A stretch of 64,000 bases of DNA from Coffea arabica (taxonomy: Eukaryota > Streptophyta > Magnoliopsida > Gentianales > Rubiaceae). The notes under the pieces are model-generated. The model saw only the letters and a program-made list of their open reading frames with translations, searched no databases and was not told where the DNA came from. This document shows positions 1,654 to 57,849 of this stretch, in pieces. The stretch is taken from the NCBI RefSeq assembly GCF_036785885.1, contig NC_092310.1, positions 3,906,001 through 3,970,000 of the forward strand. The letters are read 5' to 3'. Both the position numbers and the translations under genes were made by a program. Each line of letters begins with the position of its first letter. Within the stretch, counting starts at the first letter, position 1.

Positions 1654-2336
1654 CATGGGCATCCTCAAAATTGGATGGTGTATGTCACACACTAAGTGTT
1701 TTAATCTTTCATTCACTACTAGTGAGTTAAATAACCACCAGCAGCTTGGGCTGGCAGCGACTGCCAAAGACTTCAAAGTTTTGGTCATCATTCGTCACAG
1801 TAGGTTGTTTCCTCAAATTCGTATATGTTGGGGCTCACATCATTTATTTGGTTCGATGGTGATTCAAACATCATGATCTTTCCTATAGATTCAGTTGAGC
1901 CTCCTCTGAATTAAGTTAGAGTAGTAGTAGAGTAAATAAATGACGAATTACCAAAAAAAAAACCAGTGAGTTAAATGTTTGGGCCCACATTTTTCTACTA
2001 ATAAAATAACTTTCATTGTATATATAAGTGCAAAGATTGAAATTGGATGAGAAATACATTTCCATTTTGGATAAGTGACAATAGATTTGATACAAATTAA
2101 AAAGAAAAGTATGACACTTTCAATAGGACAGACGAGTAATATATCGATGAATATGTAAAAATTGGCATCTCTAAGCATTGAATCAATGATTATAATTCAG
2201 GAGTTAGTATTATGCAAGTTTGGATGAACAAATGAATTTTGATGCAGATGCTGATCATACATACAGGGCAAGAACAACGTGCAAATCAGATGATTCGGGT
2301 AAAGAATATGTACAAACAAGGCAATCAATCTGAAAA
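1654..2336. other. Spacer without recognised features
   Basis: AT-rich spacer. I see no coding sequence, RNA gene or clear repeat boundary. It lies downstream of the stop of the minus-strand AIF-like exon at 2337, so it may include that gene's former 3' untranslated region. Confidence 0.4.
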
Positions 2337-2530
2337 CTAGTAGCGAGCAATACGAGGGTCAAGGTCCATCTGCTTCCTTGTTTTCCCAGGAAATAGATCC
2401 TTGGATATGATCAAACAAGGAAGAAGACCAATCAATGTTGTGAATGGAAATCGAGCCACTGCATCATGCCTTCCAAGTGAGACAATAACCTTCCCATCCG
2501 TTCCCAGTTTTCGTTCATCCTCCTTGTATA
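2337..2530 (-). pseudogene. C-terminal exon of an AIF-homologue-A-like FAD oxidoreductase, isolated
   Basis: A minus-strand reading frame of about 64 codons ends at a TAG at 2337-2339. It contains GKVIVSLGRHDAVARFPF, then a hydrophobic stretch and DLFPGKTRKQMDLDP. This matches my knowledge of the C-terminus of plant apoptosis-inducing factor homologue A-like (AIFM2/FSP1-type) NAD(P)H oxidoreductases, which end with a 'VSLGR..AVAQ.PF' block and a 'DLFVGKTRKQ' block. The FAD- and NADH-binding Rossmann domains of the roughly 360-residue family are not found upstream (higher coordinates) within several kilobases. It is therefore most likely an orphan exon or gene fragment. A split gene with far-away exons is not excluded. 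The identification is from motif memory. Confidence 0.55.
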
Positions 2531-2609
2531 AAATGACTCAAAATAGATTAGGTTTCATGCACTAAAAAAACTCAGATTAATAATATCATTGCCAACTGTT
2601 GGATTCAAG

Positions 2610-2849
2610 ATGGAGAAGGCTTCAATCAAGTCCGGTCTCTTTGTTGCTCTCTTTGTTCTTCCAATCTGTTAGTCTCTCCCTTTCTCTGTTGATCTTCTCA
2701 TCTACACTGACAATCATCGCTTGCTTTCCTCTCAGAAAAAGTCATTTATTTATTTATTTATTTATTTTGCAGTATCATCACTGCCAATGATGAAAGGGAT
2801 GGAGGCCAATCTGACGACACAAAGTTTCAAGCTCTGGACACAAATTTAG
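2610..2849 (+). CDS. Possible two-exon secreted small peptide
   Basis: From the ATG at 2610 a short frame starts MEKASIKSGLFVALFVLPI, which looks like a signal peptide. A GT at 2668 and an AG at 2771-2772 after a T-rich tract would remove a 104-bp intron. Splicing joins the frame to SSLPMMKGMEA and runs to a TAG at 2847, 44 codons in all. The layout (intron at the end of the signal peptide) resembles plant defensin-like genes, but no cysteines follow, so a mature defensin fold is absent. It could be a decayed cysteine-rich peptide gene or chance. There is no expression evidence. Confidence 0.15.
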
Positions 2850-4898
2850 GTCTACTAAGACACAAAATACTAATCCAAGAATTAGACCTAAAAAACCAAA
2901 ATTCCGTAGCAAAGCTGCTCATAGAGCATTGTTTTTAAGCTCAAAATTGATTGTTCCTCCGTTTTCTTTCTCTTGTCCCTTTATTCATGTTAGTTTCAGC
3001 CAAAATTAGAGCAGAACAGCTTTTATATAAAAGATGAGAAGAAATTGAAGAAATATGAAACTTACAATTCACTGGTCAGTCCAAGAATTGATGAAGCTTC
3101 TCTATAAAGAACGGTGACTGGTGGAATTATTGAAGACTTGAAGTTGCAAAAAGTTTTGGGATGGAGCCTTAGATATAAGCTCCATTCCGGTTCCAAGAAT
3201 TTCTTTATGGAAGACAGAACTTTTTTATTATTGGCCTTTCCATGCAAAGTGATTTCCTCTATTTCCGGCCAATTTTTCCATGCTCCGGTTCCAAGAATTT
3301 CCGCTGCATTCAATCAAGCACATTGAATTTAAATTCTATTTTTTTTCAAACTTTGGCAGGAGCAAGGATTTCGTTGCATGTAAATCTAGATACATACTCG
3401 TTGCGATATTTTGTTATTGCTTGCTACGAATTCTGGTCATAGTTGATTGTAGAATCATTTCTTGTGGGAACTAATTATTTACATTACATACTATCAACTC
3501 CTTAATTTAGGTTAACTTAGCACAATTGCAGATGCAAACCGAGAAATAAGCCGCTAGCACTAATTGAAGTCCACAACTAAAATCTCACGGGTAAGATCTA
3601 AGCCATCAAAGTCTCACCCAAACTCTTTTCTTTCCCTTCTCTCTAGAACTCTTTCAATCAAGATTTTTTCCATCTCTCCAATGAAAGAGAGACCAAATTT
3701 GGTCTTTCCCCATGAGAGGAAGTACTTTTTATAGTTTTTAGTTTTTCTTATATGAATAAATTCTTTCCTAGGATTTTCTAATGAGATAATTCTTCTCTCC
3801 TAGGATCTCCTAGTGAGAGTTTTATTTTCTTTTGGATTTTTCATTGTAAGAGTTTTTTAGGGTTTTATCTTTGTAAAATTTGAGATTCTGTAAATCTAAA
3901 ATCTACTTTCTCATATATACAATTTCTCCATTATTATCATCTCTAAATTTCTCTTTGGACTTGAATTAGTTTTAAACAGATCTAATTATCAGCAAACATG
4001 CACTGATGTATTAAGCTACAATAACTCATCCGAATAGAAGATATATGGGAGCATCAATGTTATCTTTATTTGTATTGTTTTCTTAGATCTGCTATATCTA
4101 TTGATTTCAGATATATATATATATATATATATATATATCTATGTCATGTTTATTTGATGTATTTTCTACCATTAGTACAAATTTGTTTGAATGAAATGAT
4201 CTTTTCTATCAAAAAAGAAAAAGGTCTCACATTTACCGACTTGTATATGCTCGTTTTTTGAAATCAAGTGGTAAAATCTTTTATTATATATATGGTTTTA
4301 TACGAAGACAAATAGTAAACCGTTATACATCTTTGCTAGACTAGCACGGAAAGGGTATGAATCTCTTGCCACTCTTTACCCCTAGCCTACCTTATTTTCC
4401 TCTATACTAAAAGGATGTACTTTAAGGTTTTGATTTCCATTTCAAGCTGTGCTAGTGTGACACAAATTTACAATTTTGAAACTTATAAATGGTCCACGGC
4501 TAAGATTTAAGGCATTAAAGCCTAATACTATGTATAGCATGATTTGTCTCGTATCTTGAAATCAAGTGATAATAATTATATGGTTCTATTTAAAAAGTAA
4601 TGTAAACAGTCGTATCTTTGTTAGACTAGTAAAGAAAGATACATGTTGAATCCCATACTACTGTTTATAGTTTTAAGGGGTTATATATAGTTTTTAAAAT
4701 CCTAGAGGGGTTAAAGTGTACTTTAGCCAAAATAAATAAATGTTCAATGAGCCAGGCATAAATATCCGAAGATCCAATTTTCACTATTGGCAAGATTAAA
4801 CTAGAAGGTTAATCTGCTTTTCAGAATCCAAAGGCTTCAAACATCATATAAAATTCCATTCAACAAATTTTAATCATGAAGCCATCTAGTGAGACTAA
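2850..4898. other. Spacer with a TA microsatellite
   Basis: No gene is recognised. A pure TA run lies at 4111-4138. A minus-strand frame of 83 codons at 3062-3313 has no similarity I recognise. An 18-base direct repeat (TCCGGTTCCAAGAATTTC) occurs near 3187 and 3284. The rest is AT-rich and repeat-like. Confidence 0.4.
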
Positions 4899-6576: not shown

Positions 6577-8139
6577 TTAATCAATATCAAGCTCCATGTG
6601 TGAAATCTTTGACCACTCTGAGTCGTCCCCACTTTCAAAATTGCACCTATCGATTAACAGAGAACAATCAATAATCCGCAGATATGTTAATTTAGTGAGG
6701 CGTCTCATGGCAGCCATGGAGGGCAAATATTGAAGCTCTTCGCAACTCTCTAATACTAGTCTTTCAAGAGACGCAAGGTTCCCAATCCAATGTGGTAATG
6801 CTTTAATTCTTCCAAAGTCGAATAGAGATAGTGACGTGAGAGTAGTCAAGTATTGGAGCTGATGTGGAAGAGACTCCATATCAGACATCCCATTTAACTC
6901 AAGCTCACAGAGTGTTGATGATGATATTAATCCAGACCAATCAACCAAGGAGTAATCTGAGAAGGGCCCGATCATCAGTGTCGTTAAGCAAGTAAGAAAG
7001 GCAAATCCTTTGGGCATATCATTGATCAATTCGGGGCAATTGGTTAAGATGCAGGTCTCGAGAGAAGGCGTCTGTTGCAAATCAAGTGGAAAGGAGACCA
7101 GATTGGGACATTCATACACCTGAAGGCTCTGACGAGGTGAACAGGACTCTAGCATTTCACTGGCTATATGGTCAACCCATCACAATCAGAAATTGTCAAA
7201 CTCTTGAGAGACTTGAGGAGGCTTTTCTGTCCATCGTTCCGATTTTCTCCAAGATCAATTAGGGGGCATACCCGTATAGACAAATCACGCAAGGCCTGGA
7301 ACTTATACAGATTTTCCGGCAACTCCCTCAAATTATCACAGTCAAACAATTTTAAACTCTCAAGACAGGTGCCGCAATTTAATCTTCTTAGACTCGTCAC
7401 ATTGGGGCAATACGACACTTGTAGATGTTGAAGACTTGGAAAATGACAGAGTCGCTCAACCATTTCACTCGGTAGAAGCTCACAACCATCTCCTAGAGTC
7501 AAAGAACTCCCTTGGTGGCTACCATCTTCTGAATTCAAAGGTCTTTTCACCAAATCGAGAGATTCTCTATGTTGATGAGCTTCAGAATTATGTCGCGAAG
7601 ACATACTTCCATCTAGTTTGAGTGACGAGAGAGTGGTTATATTGTTTAAAACCTTTTCTGCCAGAGAAGAGTGGCAATAGAATCTGATTTCGAGCTCCTC
7701 AAGAGTTGGAAAATGACTAGGAGTTGGAGCAGTGGTCAGTTGGGAGCAACCACTGATAGACAACCTCTTCAGCACACGAAATGCAGCTACATCTTCATCC
7801 GTTGTTGATCTCACTTCGTCTGGGTCCCTCCACTCAACCAAATTCACCATCTCTTCTAGAGTGAGACTTTTAAGGGCTGGAAAGAATTTGCATTCACTAG
7901 TGCTCCCTCTTCCATCCTGCTTATCAAAAATACCATAGAATGAAAGGCCAATGCATGTTAAGTTTTCCAATTTACTCAAAGAAAGAAGTTGGAGGAATGC
8001 TAGTTCTCCTAGCCCAGCATGGAGTTCTCTGCATCTGTTGCAACCTGTTAACTCCAGGGACACTAATTTCGACAAATTCATAAACCATTGCAGAAATTGG
8101 TAACCCATAAAATCTTGAATTTCTGACACTTGTAAATAA
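6577..8139 (-). pseudogene. NLR pseudogene, 3' half (LRR domain)
   Basis: This is the leucine-rich-repeat half of the dead NLR whose 5' half lies at 11613-13823. Two minus-strand frames cover it: 8129-7164 and 7155-6577. They carry plant CNL-type LRRs such as FPSLQHLQVSYCPNVTSL and SLRELP-like units, and close with MAAMRRLTKLTYLRI and EWSKISHM. The intact paralogue at 53881-57849 has the same closing motifs (MAAMRRLTKL, SEWSKINHI). The two frames are out of register around 7150-7165, where a one-base shift places TAG and TGA codons in the reading path. The upstream edge abuts the CTAG end of the Helitron at 8140. Confidence 0.9.
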
Positions 8140-11100
8140 CTAGTAATGGAGCACGTGCTTTAACCGTGAACATGATGCTTTTAGATTTTTTTCCTTTAAA
8201 ATTTCTAAAAAATTAATTATTTTGAAGGAATAAATGTAATTGAGACAAACAAATGTAATATTTAATATTTATATTATTTGGAACTTAGTGTGCCCTAACC
8301 AATACAAATGTACAAGCAATAAACCATTCATTGTTCCAAAAGCACTTTTATTTTGTAACAATATCAATATTTTTTGTATTTTGGTTAAATATAGATGACC
8401 TAAATGTTCATTTTTATGCCATTTGAGTTTAATTTTTTTTAATAATTTGTTGCTCCCCTTTAAATCAGTCTATGAAATGTTTATTAGTTTTAGTGAGACT
8501 TTCTAATTATTGCTACTTTTTTGCTAGCTGTGGATTGTAAAATGATCAATTGTACTATTGTAATTATAATAGTATCTAAACATATTGAAATTCCATTGTT
8601 CGAATTTAAATAGCTTAACTTTGAAGAGAAATGTTTTGATTTAGTGAAACTTATTTGCATTTCTTATTGATGACATGCTTTATGATAATAGTGTTTATAT
8701 GATTAAAAATTGTAAGAAATTAAAATTATTTATTATATTATAGTCAACCTGGACTTGGATATATTTTTATTCATCTTTGAAGTACTCCTTGAAATTGATA
8801 TTTATAAAAAAATGTTTTTTTTGGCTTAATTCACCATAATTCAAAGGGATGTTTCACCTTTGTAATTATTATTATGATTGGCATTGATGAATATAATATT
8901 CATAAATTATAGTTTAATACTGTTAGTTGTTACAGGAATATGACTGATAAAATTCATTAAATTTAATCTTTATTGCAATTTAAATAAATAAATTCCCAAC
9001 ATAAAACTCTTTGCCTACCTTGGTACTCCATTTGCTACTATATATTGGATTAATGTTTTTTAACTCAGTACCAATATACATAAATTAAAAAGGTGCTCTT
9101 AAAGCTTAATTTACTTATATCCTAAAAATGAAAAGGCTTGCAATACTTTTTAGGAGACTCATAGTACCAATTTGTTATGTTTTGTTTCATATTTGAAATA
9201 TATACTCTCTAAACTTGGATTTTGTAAATAAATTTGTTCTTCTTTCTTTTGATAAATGAAAAAAAAACTAAGGAATCTTTCATTTTTGTAACTGCTTGCA
9301 TGTTTGATATTATTTATTAATGATGAAATGCAACACAATTTGTTCATTTATTGGAGAGGAGTGTAATTTTGGCATCACAAAAACTAATATCATTTTTCGC
9401 TTACACTATTAACCACTAAGATTCACCATATTTTATTATAATTTATAAATAAAATTTGTTCTTCATTTTTTGATTTAATTCTCTATAACTCAAGGGAATG
9501 TTTTTCATTCTTGTAATTGTTAGCATAACAGATATTAATTATTGATGAAATGCAATGAATTGGTTGTTTCTTTTTTGGTTTAATTAACCAGAATTATCAC
9601 AATTCAAAAAATGTTTCTTTGTAACGGTTAGCATAATTCTTATTAATTATTAAGGAAATGCAATGTAATTTGTCCATTTATTAGTGTCAAGGGTAATATT
9701 GGTATCACAAAAACTAAGACCAATTTTTACTTACACTCACACTAAAGGTTCATCATGCTTTTTATAATATCTTAAAATATATTATTTTTCAGATACTAAA
9801 AATTTTTTATGAAATTTTGATCTTCAACATCGTGATATAGTATTTTTATGTTATTTATTTTTTTAAGCTAGTTACTTTTAAAAATTTTATGAAATGAAAA
9901 GAGGCAGAAAACATTCCAATGTAGTTGACATATCCCTTAGGATTGAATTTGAAATCATGAACCAAATACTTTTTGATTTATAGCTTGAACTCCAACATAT
10001 CAAATATTGATAATATCATGTTTTACCAAAATTATTGTATATTCATGACTCTATTGCATATAAACCACAATCATCACAATTTTTTATAAACGAAGAATAT
10101 AATTAAGTTAAAAAAATAAACATTAATGTAATTTGATTTCTTTGTATTATGTTAATTCTATTTTTGTCAATAATGGAGTATAAATGATCCACCACGTAAA
10201 GTTTTTTTGGCTTGTGCATTCTAACAATTGCAATTTTATAGATAGAGATAGTTGGAGTTTTTCTATTTTCCTTTTTCTTTATTCATGTTTTTAGCACAAT
10301 CCAATGCGAAGCAAGAGCAACAACAAGTCTACTTTTTTCATATGAGCACAATATTTTTTGTTTTAATATTAGTTTTTTTGATGATTATGAAATTGGAATG
10401 AGAATTGTGGCTAATTAATAATTTTAATATTAATTTTTTGTATATTGCCATGATTTAGTTTTTAATTGCCAACTTTTAATCCATAACCACTATCATTATT
10501 ATCAATTATTGGAATGCATTAAATCTGTCTAATTACAATTGTCACTATAAATGAAATTTACTTAATTTTAAAGCTTTTCATTTCATAACTGCTTCCATTA
10601 TTCACTAATATTGCAATATAATAAATATATGTAATCATTAGAAAAACAAGAGTATTTTGGATATCACCAAAAACAATTTGGATATCATTTTTATTTTATC
10701 ATTCTTCATTTTATATTTACTCTTATTATAATTCTTATTTTATCATTAGAGATGGTTTCTGACTTGATGGATGGATTTGGTTTGCTCAAACCAATACAAA
10801 CGAAGCATTACTATATTATTGCCAATAACAATGTTTGTCTTCCCCTGGATATCAGTGATTTGGATGTTGTCTTTGGTATTACTTGAATTGTATTCTAACA
10901 TTTTAATTCATTTGCTATTTACTTTATGTCATTTTATAAATAGTTTTCAATTTTATTTTAGTTTTTCTTGTTTTGATCGGTTACTATTAATGATAATAGT
11001 GGTTTGTATGGTGCTATTTTAGATTTCTTTTTTCTAGTTTAACATTGCTATTTCAGTTATAAAGGTGTCATCATTTTTTGTATATTGAAATTTCATTGGG

Positions 11101-11612
11101 TGTAACATAAAAAATTCTTCATATTGGTAAAAGTGCATAATTGTAAAATTTGCTCGTGATAGTTGTGTGAAGATATACAGATGAATAAGGGTTTTCTTAT
11201 CATTGTATGTATCTCCATTTTCTAGAGAGTAGCTATTTTTTGAAATTGATTTTTTTTAACAATCTCAACTAATGACTAATGAGAAAATTTTCATGCTTCA
11301 ATTAAGAAATTTTGATACATATAATAATAGGAGATGGAGTCCAAGGGTAGGTAAATAGTTTTTAATGAGAAATTTTTAATTATAATTACCAAAACCATTA
11401 AAATGTAATCAATTGGAGTGTTTTATTTCTTTTAATTAGTGCCACATTAAAATGTAATAATTCTAATTAAAAGACATGAGGGTAATTTAGGGATAACAAA
11501 AACTAAGATAAAAAAGTGCTTACACTTGTACTCCCCAATACCAACATTCATACTTTTTATATAGTAATGATAATGATAATGATAATGATGATAATGATAG
11601 TAATGATAATGA
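8140..11612 (-). mobile_element. Non-autonomous Helitron inserted in the NLR pseudogene
   Basis: On the minus strand the insert starts with TC (11612-11611) after an A and ends with CTAG (8143-8140) before a T, the A|TC...CTRR|T rule of Helitrons. Near the 3' end AAAGCACGTGCTCC follows a degraded stem; the relative at 48035-53544 has the perfect stem CACGTGC-AAA-GCACGTG at this place. Removing the insert rejoins the NLR frame without gain or loss of a base against its paralogue. The 5' end is expanded by a TCATTA/TCATTATC-type microsatellite (11567-11612). There is no Rep/helicase gene. The interior (about 9160-9780) holds degenerate tandem copies of the 5' terminal module; 9780-11450 is extra AT-rich sequence absent from the relative. 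Confidence 0.88.
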
Positions 11613-13823
11613 TAGTGAGGTTGGAGACCTTCCAACACAGCTCCATCGCCGTTATCACTCTCCCGATCCCCACTTCCCTACTCGAATACCAACCTAGACA
11701 GATTTGACTTGTCAATTAATTTTGCTAGTGCAGCTCCTTCTTTACTCTTTACTAACTTAAGATTTCTTATCACCAACGATCCTTTGAGATCTTTCAAGGT
11801 TCCAAGCTCTTCAACACCATGACCCTTCTCTTCTCCTATGTTAAAGAACTCTAATGTTTGAAGGCTAGTCAATCGTCCCAGTTTGATCGGCATTTGGAGT
11901 TCTGCATCACTATGATAATAGTGAAGATGTCTCAAGCTAATCAAATTGCTTGTGCCCTCTGGAAGACCTTCATGAAGTTTTTCACCATTGATCCTCAGTG
12001 TTTGCAAGTTGTAAAGCTTGCAAAGAGATTCTGGCAAAGTTGTAATACCAGAATCTGATATATCAAGAAACCGTAAATGTAACAGGCTGCCAATGGAGTT
12101 TGGCAGCACATTGACATCTGGTCCAGCCAATTTCAGAACATGCAAGTACTCCATCTTTGATAACATGTTATCAGATATGCCATTCTCTAGAAATAATGTG
12201 CGAAGTGAGGTTGGAATTTTCTCTGTGATATTTTTTGCCTTTGCTTCAGATGAGTACAATGCAAGGTAGCTGTACTGATTGCTGCTTTTAGGATTCAAGA
12301 TTGATTTTGCAAAATCATGCACAAGATCATGCATTTTATAATATGTTCTCTCCTCTTCTTCTACTTTTTCCAACAAGGAAGCCTGCAGCAAAATTCTCAA
12401 ATAGTCACTCCCTATTTCCTCCATCACACTTCCATTTTGGTGGCCTGGTTGAAGAAAGCCTTCCGCCATCCAAAGCTCAGTTAATAGATCTTGTTCCAAT
12501 TCAGTATCCTGGGGGAAGATCGAGCAGCATGCAAAACATTTCTTGACTGATACAGGTGACAAATGATCAATACTCACCTTAAGTATTTGCTCGATCTCAC
12601 CTTGATCTCCATCCAAGAGACTCTTCTCCACAATAGACAGCCACTTTTCCTTTCCCTTGTTACGTAACATACCTTCAATTAAACTTGCTGCTAGTGGTAG
12701 ACCATCACCACATCTTCTAAGAATTTTCTCCTTTAATGCTTCCAATTCCTTTGGCACTCCTTCCCCTCTAATTGCCTTTTCTTTCAGAATAGACCAACAC
12801 TCATCGTCTGCTAGCCTTCCCAAGATATATGGACCATCATTCATCTTCATATGCATAGACATTGCATCAGCTACTGGGTCCAGACAAGTAGTAACAAGAC
12901 ACCAGCTTCCTTTGGTTGGATTGAGTCCCTCCAAAGTGGTGAAAAAGTCATTCCACAATCCTTCTTCATGATTCCACACATCATCAAGAACAAGGAGAAA
13001 TCATTTTCTCGCAATTTCTCCTCAAATTTCTTGAACAATAGCATCCCTACCATCCACTTCAACTTTTTTCCTTGTCAATGTTCCAAAACGAATTTGAACA
13101 GCTCCATTAATTCAATTTCTTTAGCCAGGCAAATCCAAATCTTCTTGCCAAAATGCTCATCAATTTGCGGATTATTGTACACTGATTTAGCGAGAGTTGT
13201 TTTTCCCAACCCTCCCATGCCTGTTATAGGAACAACAGAAATAACTTTATCAGAGGGGCTCAACATCATGTCCACTATCTTTGATTCATCGCTGGCTCTT
13301 CCCACAACATTTGGAACAAGAATAGAGTCAGCCTGTCGGTTTGTGGCGGCTCCATCGGCAGCTGGGAGTGCGGCTTCAATTTGGTACTTCACAACCAATC
13401 CCAACTCGTTGGCTTTACCGTTGATCCTGTCTAGGTTGGTGTTGATGTCCCTGATTTTTGAAGCCAATCTCGAACGAAAAACAATCGTACTAAAGCAGGA
13501 GAATGAGAAGAAGAAGCATACCTTCCTCTTCTTGACTTGACCACGATACTTCACCTCCTGACGGAGATTTTCATAATTGACCTCATCCAGCACATATTCT
13601 GCTTTAAAAACCTCTCCCTCAAGCTGCTTGAGCCAATCTTGGACCCCTGGGCTATGCATTTCCCGTCAGCATCAGCCAAGAAACCTTGGATCGTTTCAGC
13701 AGTCGCGCTTATCCTCTCCAACTCCTTTTTGACCCCAAGAATCATACGGATACGATCAACCGCAAGGGAAACAGCAGTCCCCAGCACAAAATTGATAGTT
13801 GTATTAATAGCAGCATCAGCCAT
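11613..13823 (-). pseudogene. NLR pseudogene, 5' half (CC, NB-ARC, first LRRs)
   Basis: The start MADAAINTTINFVLGTAVSL at 13823 is a typical CNL N-terminus, like MADALVGATIR of the intact paralogue. A frameshift near 13650 moves the frame to the 13659-13075 segment, with the CC 'YVLDEVNYE' block and P-loop GMGGLGKTTLA. Near 13080 the frame breaks again. In the restored reading path two TGA codons precede the kinase-2 motif FLLVLDDVW, which spans the start of the 12979-11678 frame. That frame carries WCLVTT (RNBS-B), GLPLAA, CFACCSIFPQD (RNBS-D), KMHDLVHDFA (MHD) and LRRs. It stops at 11678, shortly before the Helitron insertion at 11612. The gene is clearly non-functional: at least two frameshifts, three or more stops and the insertion. 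Confidence 0.9.
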
Positions 13824-48034: not shown

Positions 48035-48683
48035 TCATCTATTACTATTATTATTACTATATAAAAAGTATGATGAGTCTTTAGTGCAAGTGTAAGCAAA
48101 AACCCATCTTAGTTTTTGTGATACCAATATTGCCCTTGACACTAATAAATGGATAAGATTACATTGCATTTTCTTAATAATTAATAATAAGATTTATGCT
48201 AATAGTTACAAATAAACATTTCTTAAATTGTGGTGATTTTGGTGAATTAAACCAAAAAAGAACAATGAATTCATTGCATTTCATCAATATTAATATCAAT
48301 TATGCCAACAATTGCAAGAATGAAAAACATTCCCCTGAGTTATAGTGAATTAAATAAAAAAAATAAGAACAAATTTTATTTATGAATCATAAAATAATAT
48401 GGAGAATCTTAGTGGTTAATAGTGTAACAAAAAATGATATTAGTTTTTGTGATGCCAAAATTACATTCCTCTCTAATAAATGAAAAAATTGTGTTGCATT
48501 TCATCATTAATAAATAATATCAAACATGCTAGCAGTTACAAAAATGAAAGATTCCTTACTTTTTTATTTACCAAAAGAAAGAAGAACAATTTTTTTTTTA
48601 ACAAAATCCAAGTTTAGAGAGTACTTCAAACATTAGACAAAATATAATAAATTGGTACTATAAGTCTCTTAAAAAGTACCACT

Positions 48684-49026
48684 TGTTATGAAACAATTAA
48701 AAGTATGGATGTCCCTTTGTATTCCCAAGAGGATTAATTCTTGATTTATGGCTACATTATGTATAGAAGTTACAATCCATAAATCTATTCATGTAGTGGA
48801 GGAACCGTTTCATAGGTTTCTTCATATTCTTGTAGTAGTGGGTGTTTAATAGGATTAATATACCTTTGATCTTGTAGTACCTATATATAGAGGTACATTG
48901 ACACCTTTTTGGAAGTACTTTTGTATCTTGTTAGAATATAAGGATATCATTCTCCCTTTCTCTACTCCTTTCTCTAATACTTCTTCAATTCCTATTGTAG
49001 TATTTCATTTTATTAGTTTCACAACA
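48684..49026 (+). repeat. 5' LTR of the copia element
   Basis: Starts TGTTATGAAACAATT and ends TTAGTTTCACAACA. Contains CTATATATAG near 48890, a candidate TATA box, and poly-A-signal-like AATA sequences. Confidence 0.9.
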
Positions 49027-50099
49027 CGTTATCAGTACGAGTCTCTATTTTTGAGCAAAAGGTGAAAACGGAGCCTCTACCGTGAACAAAAGTGAAACAC
49101 AAGGTTTTGCCAAAATTCTGCCCGTATTTCTTCAAGTAACTTCTAAGGTAAATCTTTGACCCACAAACTTATGTCAATTTCTTATGGCTAACATTTGAAT
49201 TATCGCAAAAAATACAAGTGCCTATTGCTGAACAATCACTAAACACAAACATATACTGTTTGACACCTTTGAGATAATATTTCTTCTTTTAATTCTATTT
49301 ATTTACATTTAGAATTATTCGTTATAGATACTTATATTCTAATGCATTGAATTTTGGAGATGCTATTATAGAAAATCAATTATATTTGAAAATCTACTTG
49401 TCCTTTGAAATATTTAAAGAAAAAGATTCGATCACCTGAAGATGGTTGTTCTTTAATAAAAAGATTTGACCACTAGAAGATGGTCATTATTTCAAAAGCC
49501 TGGTATGATAAATTTACCTGTGGCTATAAAACATAATTATGCAATTTTCAGAATTACTTCTCAATTGAAATTGTGTTGAGAAAATTTTACTCATAAGATA
49601 TATTGAAAATGATACTCTCCACAATTGATTTCTTGAATATGCTCCTGTAGTAACAATATTAAGAGAAATTTTGAGAAGTATTTTGTACTTATTGCATGTT
49701 AATTCTAGTCCATTCCCAGAAGTGAATGTGACTAAATTTCAATTTATTAGTTATGGTTGTTGCCATGATTATGATTTTGGTAAATATATATTGTACCATG
49801 ACAAGAGAAAAAGTTACCACTTAAAGTGGGATAATAATGATAAGGACAAGAAAATAAGAATTCTAAAGATAAATGTCCCGAAGTACATTTGACGAATCAA
49901 AATTATAATAGCATCTTCACATAGTCAATTTCTTTAAACACCCTGAAGGTGTATAATGATTGATTTAATTAGCTTTTCTTCCTGAAGAAGAAATGGATGT
50001 TAAACATTTGGGATCAAAGGATTATGGTGATGATATTTGTCCCATAAAAATTATGGTGATAATGATATGTGTCTCATTAATAAGTACTACTATATATAC

Positions 50100-50880
50100 T
50101 ATTTTTCAACAAAAGAGACAAACACAATTAGTGGTAGTGCTTAAGTGATTGAAAGCTCCAGAAGAGCCACTACTATATTTCTCCCTGTAGGAGAAAAGTT
50201 TATCATAAATAAAGTACTACTTTTTACCATGTCTCGAAAGAATTATTAAATTTGAATATCCGTCAAAATGGATATCAAATTGAGACACTAAATGAGAGAG
50301 ATCATGTTTAAAAATCAAATGAGATAAATGTTGATTATATCATAATAATCATTCGAGAGAGAAACTTTTATCGATATAATTGTCTTCATTCTCATTTGAT
50401 TTATAATCATCACTTGCAGTAAACCAGAAGTTTACTGATCCCAACGGATATATGATTTGACAAAAGTGAAAATATTTGAGAGCCGACAAATATTTATACA
50501 TACCCCTTTATATTATATATGGCTCCAAAAAAATTTTTTAAATTTATGTCGGGTATGAACCACTTTTTACGATTAAATATCGTAAAATATTGATGGGTGA
50601 TCTATTAAATGATTTATTTATTCTGATGAGTTACAATTCCCGACATTAGGGGGAGGAAGAAATCAACCGAAAGGAAATCACCTAAAAAATTGGATTTCCT
50701 CGATCCTCATACAAAATAACGTGAACTGGAAGTTCAAAAAATTATTCATTTGCAGAAAATTGCAAATCAGTTGTCAGATATATTATCGACTCCAGAAGAG
50801 TTATTAAATCAACTATTCCTGCAGGAAATACCTTGGTTAAAATTGATGTCCCTGAAGGACATGCATAAGTGCTGCAAATA
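50100..50880 (+). pseudogene. Decayed copia protease/pre-integrase and post-integrase pieces
   Basis: Translated across stops, 50110-50310 gives ISGSA, VIESS.RATTIFLPVGEK and SVKMDIKLRH-like sequence, corresponding to the 'ISG...VIEG.GRA.I.LPNGT' to 'IRQNGYHIET' stretch ahead of the integrase zinc finger. 50480-50880 gives YIPLYYI, IYVGYEPLFTIKY, ILMGDLLNDLF, then KSTIPAGNTLVKIDVPEG, corresponding to the linker between integrase and reverse transcriptase. The catalytic integrase core between the two is deleted. Many stops are present. Confidence 0.7.
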
Positions 50881-51119
50881 AATTTAAGGCCGGCCTACCA
50901 AAATAAGGTATAAATTGATTTCAAATATCTCTGGAGATTAAATAAATGTCATGACAAAATTCAACCTCTTGAAGAGATTGCTCCTGAAGAGCCAACTCTT
51001 GAAGAGAATTAAATCATAGAAAATTTAATTGGAGTCTAATAAAATGTAGCACTTGATGTTATAGAAGTTGATGAGGATCATGAATCTAGATCGGTTGATG
51101 AATGTCGGTATAGAAATGC

Positions 51120-52081
51120 TTGGAAAAATGGAAAGATGCGATTCAATTTGAATTGGACTCACTGGCTACAAGAAAAGTTTTTGGACCTGTAGTCCAAACA
51201 CCTGAAAGTGTAAAGCCAGTAGAATATAAATGGGTATTTGTGAGAAAAAGAAATGAGAAAAAAGAAATTGTGAGACTTGTAGCCCAAGAATTTTTACAAA
51301 GGTCTGGATTTGATTATGATGAAACGTATTCACCTGTAGTGGATGCTATTACATTTAGATATCTTGTGAATTTTGCAATACATGAAAAATTAGATATGCG
51401 TCTAATGGACGTCGTTACTGCATATTTATATGAAAATCTTGAAAATGATATTTATATGAGAATCTCCGAAGGATTCAACATGCCTGAAGCATGCAAATCA
51501 ACTTCTAAAAATATTTATTCTATTAAATTACAAAGGTCTCTGTATGGGCTCAAACAATCTGGACGTATGTGGTTAACCGTCTCAATGAATGTCTGACAAA
51601 TGAAGGTTATACCAATGATCCAATATGTCCATATGTTTTTATTAAGAAAAATGGATCAAATTTTGTGATAATTGCTGTATATGTTGATGATCTAAATTTG
51701 ATTGGAACTCCTGAAGAGATTCAAAATAATGTTGAATATTTAAAGAAGGATTTTGAGATCAAGAATTTTGGAAAAACAAAATTCTACCTTGATTTACAAA
51801 TTGAGCATTTGAAAAGTGAAATTTTTATCCACCAAATTACATATACCCGAAAGGTATTAAAGCGATTTTATATGGATAATGCACATATATTAAGTACTCC
51901 AATGATCGTCAGATCATTAGATTCTAATAAAGATCCTTTTAGATCACGAAAGGAAGATGAAGAGATACTTGGTCCTGAAGTACCATATCTCAGTGCAATT
52001 GGCAAAGAATATTGGAATGCGACGATTAAAAGATCTCAAATGATGTTTGCATCGGGGGGAGAAATTAATACACAAGAATAG
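51120..52081 (+). pseudogene. Copia reverse transcriptase, frameshifted
   Basis: The first frame (51120-51596) holds the RT start: KPVEYKWVFVRKRNEKKEIV, RLVAQEFLQRSGFDYDETYS, DVVTAYLYENLENDIYMR and YGLKQSGRMW. Directly after this block the frame shifts into 51569-52081. That frame carries the catalytic YVDDLNLIGTPEEI and continues to LSTPMIVRSLD and VPYLSAIG. DVVTAYLYE replaces the usual DV.TAFLNG/YG. RNase H is missing and the second frame ends at 52081, about 100 bp before the 3' LTR. The enzyme cannot be active from this copy. Confidence 0.9.
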
Positions 52082-52183
52082 TGTACTCTTTTTCCTTCAC
52101 TAGGGTTTTTGGTCCCACTGGATTTTTCTCTAGTAAGGTTTTAACGAGGCATATTCTTTGTATAATGGACATCCAAGGGGGAG

Positions 52184-52526
52184 TGTTATGAAACAATTAA
52201 AAGTATGGATGTCCCTTTGTATTCCCAAGAGAATTAATTCTTGATTTATGGCTACATTATGTATAGAACTTACAATTCATAAATCTATTCATATAGTGGA
52301 AGAACCGTTTCATAAGTTTCTTCATATTCTTGTAGTAGTGGGTGTTTAATAGGATTAATATACCTTTGATCTTGTAGTACCTATATATAGAGGTACATTG
52401 ACACATTTTTGGAAGTACTTTTGTATCTTGTTAGAATATAAGGATATCATTCTCCCTTTCTCTACTCCTTTCTCTAATACTTCTTCAATTCCTATTGTAG
52501 TATTTCATTTTATTAGTTTCACAACA
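52184..52526 (+). repeat. 3' LTR of the copia element
   Basis: Counterpart of 48684-49026, identical in length, with about seven substitutions (e.g. AAGAGAATTAATTC here, AAGAGGATTAATTC on the left). Confidence 0.9.
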
Positions 52527-53544
52527 CCACTTGTCATTTTATTTTTTGGATACAACTAAATTAAGCCTTAAGAGCACCGTTTAAATTTGCATTTATTAGC
52601 TTTGAGTACAAAACTTTTATACAAAATATAATAGGAAATAGAGTACCAAGGTAGGCAAAGAGTTTTATGTTGGGAATTTATTTATTTAAGTTGCAATAAA
52701 GATTAAATTTAATGAACTTTATCAATCATATTCTTGTAACAACTAACAGTATTAATGAATATTAAATTCATCAATGACAATCATAATATTAATTACAAAA
52801 ATGAAACATCCCTTTGAGTTATGGTGAATTAAGCCAAAAAATATTTTAAAAAAAAATATCAATTTCAAGGAGTACTTTATGGGTGAATAAAAATATATCC
52901 AAGTTCAGTTTGACTATTACATAATAAATAATCTTAAAGTCTTACAAATTTTAATCATATAAACTTTATAATCATAAAGCATGTCATCAATGAGAACTAC
53001 AAATAAATTTCACCAAATCAGAATATTTTTCTTCACAGTTAAGCTATTTAAATTTGACTTATGGAATTTCAATATGTTTATATACTATATATTATATTAC
53101 AATGGCATTATACATCATTTTACAATCCACCGTTGGCAAACAAATAATAATAATTAGAAAATCTCACTAAAACTAATAAACAATTCATAGAATGACTTAA
53201 AGGGAAGCAATAAATTATTCAAAAAATTAAAAATTTAAACTCAAATGGCATAAAAAAGAGAATTTTGATCATCCGAATTTAACCAAAAGACAAAAATAAG
53301 ACAAAAATATCGATACTATTACAAAATAAAAGTGCTCTTGGAACAAAGAATGATTTATTGTTTGTACGATTGTATTGGTTAGAGCGAACTAAGTTTAGAA
53401 AAATATAAAATAATATAAATAGTAAATATCACATTTTTTCTCAATTATATTTATTCCTTCAAAATAACTAATTTTCTGAAAATTTTAAAGGATAAAAATC
53501 TAAAAGCATCATATTCACGTGCAAAGCACGTGCTCCATGACTAG

Positions 53545-53880: not shown

Positions 53881-56800
53881 TCATTGCTGCAGAAGACTTG
53901 TCCAGCTGTGATCTGCAGTTGAAGGAATTAACAAATCAATAATGCAAAACGTAGAAAGCATAAACATGTTCATCATGACTAGCAACATCCCATTTGGAGA
54001 ATTTCACATCGAGAACTGATGAAGAAGTTCTGATACTAACAAACCAAAATTAGATATATTCATATCCAAAAGGAAAAAGATCGAAAAGTTGAAAAAATAG
54101 AACAAAAGAAAATATGGAAACAAATTGGAGACGGCGAAAAGGAGAGATTTTTTTTGTGGAAACCCAACAAAAGAATTACAAGTGATTTGAAGGTTGAGAA
54201 TCTTACAAGGTAAATACTGAACAGTCATCTGACCAACAAAGATATGAGGTATATGGTTAATCTTAGACCACTCAGAGTCAGGGCCGCTTTGAGGAGTACA
54301 TAGTTCCTCCAACAAGGGACAGTGTTTGATGCACAATTCACTTAACTTAGTGAGGCGTCTCATAGCAGCCATGGAGGGTAAAGTTCGAAGTTTAGCACAA
54401 TTCACTACTTCTAGTTCTTCAAGATGAACAAGGTTCCCCAACCATTCTGGTAAAGCTTCTATTCCAAAGCCAAATAGATGTAATTCTATCAGGGCAGTCA
54501 GATTTTGAAGTTGATTTGGCAGGGACTCAGAGCGAGGCCACCCCTGTAATGTCAGTTTTCGGACAGGAAAAAAAGAACATAAAGCTAACCAATCATATCC
54601 ATAGTTCTCCATTGAAGTATCTGAGAAGGGACCAATACATAATTCCCTTAAGCTGGTAAGACCACCAAATCCTTGGGGCATAGTGGTTAACTTGGGACAG
54701 TTACTTAGCCATAACACTGAAAGAGAAGGCATCTGTTGCAAATCAACTGGAAACCACACAAGATTGTGGCATTCGTACAGTCTGAGTTCCCGGAGAGATG
54801 TATTGAGCTCTAAAATTTCACTTGGAAGACTTCTCAAGCCATTGCATTGACCAATTGTCAAACTTCGAAGAGATTTGAGATGTTGCTGGTCATTTGGAAC
54901 TATAAGATCGATAGTCTTGAGATTAGGACACCTTACTACTGACAAGTGTTCCAAAGAAAGCAACTTATGCAAGTCACCTAGATGCAGTAAATGAGGACAG
55001 CTCTCTAATGACAGGTATTTTAAATTTTGGCTGTTGTGAACTGCTAACACATCAGAAACGCATGTGAGTCCTGCCTGGCCTCCTATACTGAGTGTTGAGA
55101 GAGTGGTCGCTTTGCTCAAAATATCTTTTAACACCAAAGCATGGCTTTTATTCGGTGTTTTCAACTGATAATACAAACCATCACGATAATTTTCAATTAC
55201 CAATTGTCTAAGGCATGGGAAATAATTTGGAGCTCTGTTTAGTTTACAGCAATTCTGTATCTTCAATGTCTCCAGCATGGGGAACACATCTAATACTTCA
55301 CCTTCTGTTGCTTCTGCCTCCATCCACTCAACGAGATTGTTCATATTGTAGAGGTAGAGACATTTAAGATGTGGAAACACCTTTCTAGACAATTGACTAG
55401 AACTACGAGAGCTTCTGGATCCACTTGGATTGCATAAGCCATAGAATGAATGCCCAATGACTGTTACCTTTTCCAGTCCAATCATGGCCAGAGACTGGAG
55501 AAATGGCAGTTGTCCAAGTGCAGGAAGCTCTGTGCATCTTCTGCAGTTTATTAGCCGTAGACATACCAATTTGTCGAGACTTGTTGACAGATTCATCAAC
55601 CACAGTGGAAATCGATTACTCATGAAATTTTCAACTTCTAATACTTGCAGATTGGGGTGAGGTTGGAGGCCATCCAACACATTTATATCAGCACCGTCAA
55701 CTTCCCATCTACCACCCCATTCAAGTGATAGCGAAGACAAATTCTGCTTTTCGAACAATTTTGCCCTTTCAGCTGCTTCTTTGCCTTCTACTAGTTCAAG
55801 ATTGCGGATCCTCAGGAAACCTTTCAGGTCTCTTAAGCATCCAAGCTCTTCAATTTGGCGTCCTTTCTCTTCACCAACATTGAAGAAGTCCAGCGTTTGA
55901 AGACAAGTTAATCTCCCCATCCCTAGCGGCATCTGCACTTTTCTATCATTATTGTAATAGGATAGATGTCTCAAGCTAATCAACTTGCTCATCTGCTCTG
56001 GAAGGTCCATTGGAGAAATGCAATTGAACTTCAGAGTCTGCAAATTATAAAGCTTGCAAAGAGATTCTGGCAAAGTTTTTATTTGAGTGTGTGGAAACTC
56101 AAGATAGCGCAGATGGATTAGTTTACCAATTGATGTTGGCAACTCCACAGTATTTGCTGAAGACAAGTCTAGAACACGCAAGTTCTTCAACTTTGGTACT
56201 AGGTCCTCCGATATAGGACTCCTTGGAAATAATGAACGAAGTGAACTAGATATGACTTCAGAGTTTTTTGGTGTAATTTCTCCAGATGAGTTTAAAACAA
56301 TGCTTTCACATCTCGAAATAGATTGTGCAAGGTCATGTACGAGATCATGCATTCGACCAAATGTCCGCTTATCACTGCTAATTTCTTCATGCAACAAGGA
56401 ACTGTCCACCAAAACTCTGAAATACTTATCACCTATTTCCTCCATTACTTCATTTTCAAGATTTGATTGAAGAAATCCCTCTGCCATCCAAAGTTGGATT
56501 AACTTCCTCCTTTCTATCTTGAAATCCTTGCAAAACATCGAGCAGTATGCAAAGCATTTTTTAATGGATAGAGATGGCAAATGATCAAAGCTCAGCTTGA
56601 GTATTTGCATGACACTACAGTCATCTCCAGTAGACTTCAAAAGCCCATTCTTCACAATTGAGAGCCACTCCTCCTTCCTTGTCATACGCAACATACCTCC
56701 AATAACAATTGCAACAAGTGGTAGACCTTGGCACCATTTTGTGATTTCCTTTTCTTGTACTTGCAATTCTTCTGGTACTTCCCCACTTCCTATCATTTTG

Positions 56801-57849
56801 TCTTTTATTATAGTCCAGCAATCATCATCAGATAGCTTCCCTAATGAATAGGGAGGATATGTAGCCACAACGGTTGCCACTTGTAGCTGACGAGTAGTCA
56901 CAAGACACCAGTTTCCTCTGGTCGTGCTTATTCCAGTCAAAGAACGATAAAAATCCGTCCAGAGTAAAGGAATTTCATTCCAAAGATCATCCAATACAAG
57001 AAGATATCGTTTGCCCTCGATTTCTTTTCGAATCTCTTGGACAATAACGTCTCTGCTAGCTACATCAACTTTGCGTCTTGTCAACGATTCCAAGATTAGT
57101 CTGAATATCCTAGTGACCTCAAAATCTTCAGATACACAAACCCAAATCTTTAAATCGAAATGCCTCTCGATTTGCTGGTCGTTGAAAATTGACTGAGCCA
57201 GAGTTGTTTTTCCCAAACCACCCATTCCAGTTATGGGCAAAACATAAATAACATTGCTGGTCTCACTCGAAATCTTCTGCACTATTTTGAACTTATCATG
57301 CTCTCTACCCACAATATTAGGAAAAACAACGGAGTCAGTCTCACGATTGACCATCACAGTTCTACTAATGTCGGGAAGCAGAGTAGCTTTTGTACCACTA
57401 CCCCCCAATTGGGACTTGAGTCCAAAGCTATTCGCTTCTTCATTAATAATGTTCAACTTCTTGTTCAAATCCCTTATCTTTTGACCCATTTTCCAACGAA
57501 AACCAATTGAGTTAGAATGGAAAAGAGAGCGTACCTTTCCTTTCAGTTGGTTACCATTTCTCTTTCCGGTCTCTACCTGTTGTCTTAGAACATCATAGTT
57601 GAGCTCATCCAACACGTTATCAGCTTCATAAGCCAGTCCTTCAAGTCTCTTCAGCCAAAGCTGCACTGCCTGCTGCTTCGGCTGCTCTTCCTCAGCATCA
57701 GCCAAGACAGCTAGGATCATCTCCACAGATGCTTTGAACTTCACCAGATCCTCCTTGAATCCATAAACCACGCCAATCTGGTCACTAGCAATGCCAACTG
57801 CCTTCTCTAACGTAATCCTTATGGTAGCACCAACAAGAGCATCAGCCAT
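53881..57849 (-). CDS. CC-NBS-LRR disease-resistance protein (CNL, RGA-like), intact
   Basis: Intracellular immune receptor of the CNL class. I take the start at MADALVGATIR (57849), the family's usual N-terminus; an in-frame ATG 84 bp upstream (57933) only adds an unrelated extension. Approximate residues from 57849: Rx-type coiled coil 1-145 with ADNVLDELNYD (76-86); P-loop GMGGLGKTT (208-216); kinase-2 LLVLDDLW (283-290, W typical of CNLs); RNBS-B WCLVTTR (314-320); GLPL (375-378); RNBS-D CFAYCSMFCKD (432-442); MHD (500-502); then LRRs to about 1190. All NB-ARC motifs are intact. After EWSKINHIPHIFVGQMTVQY a GTAAGATTCTC donor (exon end 54207) and an acceptor CTTCAACTGCAG (next exon from 53912) give an in-phase 32-bp last exon ending TGA at 53881, about 1224 residues. 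Without splicing the frame reads into a hydrophobic, intron-like tail to 54004. Confidence 0.93.
54207..57849 (-). other. Exon 1 of the NLR gene (predicted)
   Basis: The 3643-bp exon leaves one base of a split codon, completed by the proposed 32-bp second exon (53881-53912). The donor CCTT|GTAAGATTC is strong. The pseudogene paralogue has CCT|GTAAGATTTTC at the equivalent place, which supports a conserved 3'-end intron. Confidence 0.6.

Follow-up and report, generated by a model that had tools for sequence, protein, structure and literature searches.

The window, that is the whole 64,000-nucleotide stretch of Coffea arabica DNA analysed here (C1:3906001-3970000), contains an NLR pseudogene interrupted within its LRR region by a 3,473-bp insertion, an open NLR paralogue and a second Helitron copy. 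Table 1 lists these features together with the parts of the insertion. Genome searches were run against the window's own assembly (G000; 1.198 Gb in 131 contigs).

Table 1 Features of the window, in window coordinates, and the observations on which they are based.
Feature	Position	Strand	Observations and basis
NLR pseudogene interrupted by the insertion	6595..13647	minus	Two of three stops (one at 11680-11678) common to both empty copies
Whole insertion	8140..11612	minus	3,473 bp; TC...CTAG; empty sites L009 and L010 equal the joined flanks
Helitron A part	9762..11612	minus	Has its 5' end and body, lacks its 3' hairpin and CTAG; L051, many relatives, A 3' ends
Expanded TCATTA-type repeat (A 5' terminus)	11561..11612	minus	In other A copies, an A precedes the initial TCATTA units
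TATAA microhomology at the fusion point	9762..9766	minus	A 3' regions, B start, junction search
Helitron B part	8140..9766	minus	Has its body and 3' CTAG, lacks its 5' TC tip; L011, L012
Partly decayed 3' hairpin	8152..8168	minus	CACGGTTAAAGCACGTG; commonest family form CACGTGCAAAGCACGTG
Second Helitron family B copy	48038..53544	plus	Ends TC (48038) and CTAG (53544); interrupted by a 3,839-bp insert; empty site in L098
Open NLR paralogue	54007..57849	minus	1,281 aa; Rx_N, NB-ARC, winged helix, LRR (CC-NB-ARC-LRR)

Boundaries of the insertion and state of the host gene

The insertion is seated between a host A (11613) and a host T (8139), its outer ends reading A|TC and CTAG|T. On the minus strand, CAACCTCACTA (11623-11613) is followed by TC, and the CTAG at 8143-8140 is followed by TTATTTACAAG (8139-8129). 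The first-pass annotation had described these flank letters and ends, and had read the joined flanks as PHYYLQV against PHPNLQV in the paralogue; all of this was found as stated. The paralogue alone is weak proof of an empty site, because five of the six bases in the two middle codons differ from the joined flanks, and we therefore set it aside and used two closer NLR copies in its place.

A search with 600 bp of the downstream flank gave 38 matches, of which three were near-identical places, namely the window itself, C2:4683840-4684439 (98%) and C1:4001118-4001722 (97%); the remaining 35 showed 65–82% identity. The two NLR loci fetched from these places, L009 (C2:4.684 Mb) and L010 (C1:4.001 Mb), cover the upstream side too and align to either side of the insert, with the sides meeting without a gap. 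Both read CAACCTCACTATTATTTACAA, letter for letter the joined flanks, and empty sites are present in 2 of 2 near-identical NLR copies. Their flanks are 97–98% identical to the window copy by BLAST and 98.8% identical by MAFFT alignment (L009 against L010: 99.3%, also by MAFFT). The earlier claim that no base was gained or lost therefore stands through CAACCTCACTATTATTTACAA, and the alignment with relatives lacking the insert, which might have contradicted it, came out in its favour. No target duplication is visible when the joined flanks of the 3,473-bp insertion are compared with the empty sites; a TC...CTAG element without duplication is indistinguishable from a C...CTAG element with a 1-bp T duplication, as is true of any A^T insertion starting with T. 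The strength of the insertion case rests on these empty sites, single flank motifs being weak: for the 3' flank 11-mer, the window contains six matches with one mismatch, where 4.8 would be expected.

We rejected the idea that the Helitron was what first disabled the NLR, and inactivation of a working NLR by it is not supported. Two stops, one in the NB-ARC region and one in the LRR region, are common to the interrupted copy and to the uninterrupted copies L009 and L010, so the gene was broken before the insertion; the third stop is private to the window copy. Frame breaks occur in all three copies, near paralogue residue 254 in the window copy and near 403-408 in L009 and L010, and they were not counted as shared because their places differ.

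The left flank of the second Helitron copy is found at C2:4649 kb and L009 at C2:4684 kb, the same order as that of the second copy and L010 on C1, and L009 and L010 therefore look like counterparts. The downstream-flank search of the assembly returned no near-identical C2 partner for the window NLR gene, which, by this comparison, looks like an older duplicate relative to the counterparts L009 and L010.

Two Helitron families in one insertion

The Helitron identity of the insertion is well supported. Plant-type Helitrons carry a palindrome of 16–20 bp located 10–12 bp ahead of the 3' end; the candidate here, 17 nt long and 12 nt ahead of the B 3' end, has five of its seven pairs in this copy and folds no better than shuffles. 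Terminal inverted repeats were not seen, the two ends being unpaired among the 25 of 68 inverted repeats listed. The four ORFs of at least 60 aa overlapping the insert are all 62–83 aa long, and none of them provides a transposase of its own. In the assembly, the 150 best scored of 763 candidates for the Helitron Rep domain (PF14214) include many open frames of >1,000 aa; Rep/Hel proteins encoded elsewhere in the genome would thus supply rolling-circle transposition in trans. At C8:523936-558333, three Rep domains with equal scores, each in an open frame of 1,126 aa, recur at intervals of 16,926 bp, which points to a tandem repeat with an autonomous Helitron in it.

That the insertion is a Helitron composite is near certain, and it very probably consists of two non-autonomous Helitrons of different families, A and B, fused end to end. 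L011 and L012, which rank best among the relatives listed, match positions 1847–3473 of the insert at 97–98% and do not match its body ahead of position 1847; as both flanks are common to them, they are duplicates of one insertion. A short 5'-end similarity between the insert and B copies (about insert 1–134) is due to the related 5' ends of the two families. For the outer part, insert 1353–1841 yielded 260 candidates, the best 40 scored being 93–99% identical besides the window itself, and the 5' 306 bp yielded 500 candidates (best 40 scored, 94–99%). L051 matches insert 36–1851 at 97.6% and then runs on into ACAATCACGTGCAAAGCACGTGAACTATTACTA; the final ~34 nt of A, comprising hairpin and CTAG, are lacking in the window insertion. 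Based on the extents of the relatives and the A 3' termini, the outer part corresponds to Helitron A shortened by ~34 nt at its 3' end, and the inner part to Helitron B minus its first bases. The proposal that the family could be defined from this copy consequently does not hold, as the insert fuses two Helitron families and its 3' hairpin is partly decayed.

At the fusion point, the A 3' region of L072, whose body piece is the closest A relative among the matches listed (99%), reads GATAT-TATAA-TCACG, B reads ACTA-TATAA-AAAGC, and the window junction reads GATATTATAAAAAGC. The microhomology amounts to 5 bp if A resembled L072, but shrinks to 2 bp when compared with the more frequent A form, which has a C (GATATTACAATC). 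A 141-bp query spanning the join (window 9700-9840) gave 201 candidates, of which the best 40 were scored; among the 41 matches listed, the window's own copy is the sole full-length one. The others split near 79/75 into A (1–79) and B (75–141) located elsewhere, with one weak match (C11:56463362, 85%) extending to 117.

The termini were compared across family copies. All 20 A 5' ends fetched are readable as A|TC, as judged by eye. For the A 3' regions, 20 were fetched of the 39 other places listed; an A-type 3' terminus, in some cases with a shortened hairpin, is present in 17 of these and absent from L074, L077 and L082, and it is followed by T in 16 of the 17. The outer 5' end of the insertion is of the A type (TCATTA), and most B copies whose 5' end was read start with TCTA. 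The 5' type is not a perfect family marker, because L018, with a B-type 3' end, starts with TCATTACTG and a clear TCTA start was not found at the 5' ends of the B copies L013, L022, L023 and L027. The 5' ends of the Helitrons (11561-11618 in the window) are variable and resemble microsatellites, being built of TCATTA units in A and, in most of the B copies read, of TCTATTA or TCTA; the 5' termini therefore differ in length between copies. Arrays of two or three A 5' ends spaced 350–800 bases were observed at C22:43973416-43974845, C21:32753395-32755243, C6:5025191-5025856 and C5:4848407-4849067, and in L054 and L058 A body sequence lies directly ahead of another A 5' end (by eye).

For the B 3' ends, the best 40 of 135 candidates were scored; the 40 rows comprise 38 loci and the two window copies, with L039 and L050 left out as duplicates, and several rows have common flanks and are not independent. 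A T follows in 38 of the 40 rows, including L048, which ends in CTTT; a real 3' end is absent in L028 and L045. In the gapless subset of 30 rows (10 dropped), the end is CTAG in 25 and the next base is T in all 30. Both window Helitron copies show CTAG|T.

Within the same 30 rows, all seven stem pairs of the hairpin are formed in 13 and at least six in 21, with five in the window copy. The hairpin of the window insertion folds as a 4-bp stem, no better than shuffles (z 0.23). Covariation was considered as support for the hairpin and none was found above shuffles, the 7-bp stem being paired at 85.7% over 26 distinct rows, where shuffles average 85.3% and 781 of 2,000 shuffles reach the observed value. 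An exact search for the intact hairpin with the end of either family found 40 places (reversed control: 0). Three adjacent changed bases at 8162-8164 (insert 3449–3451), which belong to the 11 private B differences, fall in one hairpin arm.

The second family B copy has an empty site of its own. Its C2 counterpart L098 reads ...GCATCTAATCA|TTAGAAG..., equal to the joined flanks, with an A^T target and no visible duplication. Together with the two NLR empty sites, this bears out the Helitron identity, A^T target, lack of visible duplication and exact outer boundaries that the first-pass annotation had put forward. The 3,839-bp insert within this second copy (48687-52525, plus-strand coordinates) is surrounded by a 9-bp duplication, ACCACTTGT (48678-48686, 52526-52534), and has imperfect inverted ends, TTATGAAACAATTAAAA / TTGTGAAACTAATAAAA; it resembles a Mutator-like element.

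Order and timing of the events

As the most likely history, we tentatively propose that B inserted first, followed by A beside B and then by a small deletion. B would have inserted at CACTA^TTATTT, A would have entered the A^T whose A belongs to the host and whose T is the first base of B, and a deletion between TATAA repeats would have taken A's 3' end and B's 5' tip. This order is argued from parsimony and from precedent in maize and Helraiser; insertion at a host A and the T of an earlier Helitron is reported in PMC2267711. Exact-pattern searches of the assembly for an intact abutting A-B pair (one pattern) and for an A end abutting TATAAAAAG both gave 0 matches, so the intact intermediate is unseen. 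The 5' edge has an additional TCATTATCATTACTA that may be left over from a different 5' end, which would speak against the proposed order.

On the window branch, private changes make up 40 of 4,786 sites in the flanks; in B, compared with two relatives, they make up 11 of 1,586. The figure for A shifts with the relatives used, being 10 of 1,608 with five relatives and 14 to 24 of 1,735 to 1,763 with pairs of them. Private changes thus give no usable difference by which A and B could be ordered and do not show B to be older, and this way of dating them was discarded. Plant substitution rates are near 7e-9 per site per year, and at such a rate the private changes of the flanks set an approximate upper limit of about 1.2 million years.

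It is possible, if doubtful, that the fusion arose elsewhere, that A without its hairpin terminator ran through to B's CTAG, and that the chimera inserted as one unit. The outer ends, A's 5' and B's 3', would fit this, as does a private divergence that does not separate A from B. Loss of the hairpin terminator leads to read-through in Helraiser (PMC4778049), and in maize it has been proposed that nested Helitrons can mobilise from an internal 5' end (PMC3288121). Along these lines, A's hairpin may conceivably have been lost by the TATAA microdeletion, with read-through into the neighbouring B giving a new chimeric element of A 5' and B 3' end. However, the junction occurs at no other place among the 41 matches listed (40 of 201 candidates scored), and B's own hairpin is partly decayed and would not have helped termination, unless the decay came later.

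Nesting with internal leftovers, where A inserted a few bases within B's 5' end (ACTA^TATAAAAAG) or B into A's 3' end and one or two small deletions followed, appears unlikely. The B part does start exactly at TATAAAAAG, the 5' edge has a 15-mer ending in ACTA ahead of another TCATTATC, and L018 combines its TCATTACTG start with a B-type 3' end. Yet the 15-mer is the usual A form, most B copies read start with TCTA, B into A requires a second deletion, and an intact A end ahead of TATAAAAAG was not found in the exact-pattern search of the assembly. That the insertion is one Helitron of a single family, as the first-pass annotation had it and as its continuity and proper ends might suggest, was rejected as highly improbable: A and B relatives cover separate parts of the insert, the first 1,846 bp are absent, but for the short 5'-end similarity, from the nearest B relatives, A relatives have their own 3' end, and no other match among the 41 listed (40 of 201 candidates scored) spans the junction.

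Relation to known Helitrons

According to PMC2267711, the maize r1 Helitrons No.1 and No.2 are, like the window insertion, two different Helitrons arranged head to tail; both are described there with their ends, whereas the facing ends are deleted in the window. Maize multi-terminus Helitrons arising from nesting (PMC3288121) resemble the insertion in having several Helitron ends, but helitron_mc2 of that study is multi-copy, in contrast to an A-B junction found once. Helraiser (PMC4778049) shares the hairpin ahead of CTAG as terminator and the A|TC and CTAG|T junctions; it is an autonomous reconstructed bat element tested in cells, whereas the window element is non-autonomous and was deduced from sequence. 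This locus is absent from the titles and abstract openings of the papers listed on Helitrons with NLRs, coffee, nesting and read-through. Adjacent and multi-terminus Helitrons were known already from maize, and the composite is a further example.

Two cautions follow for annotation: two families can end up merged when a consensus is taken from a single insertion, however well bounded, and an insertion within an NLR is not necessarily the cause of the gene's breakage. For a Helitron family of a large plant genome, the locus fixes the ends and empty sites to the base, and this one composite lets the loss of a hairpin terminator be read at the single-base level.
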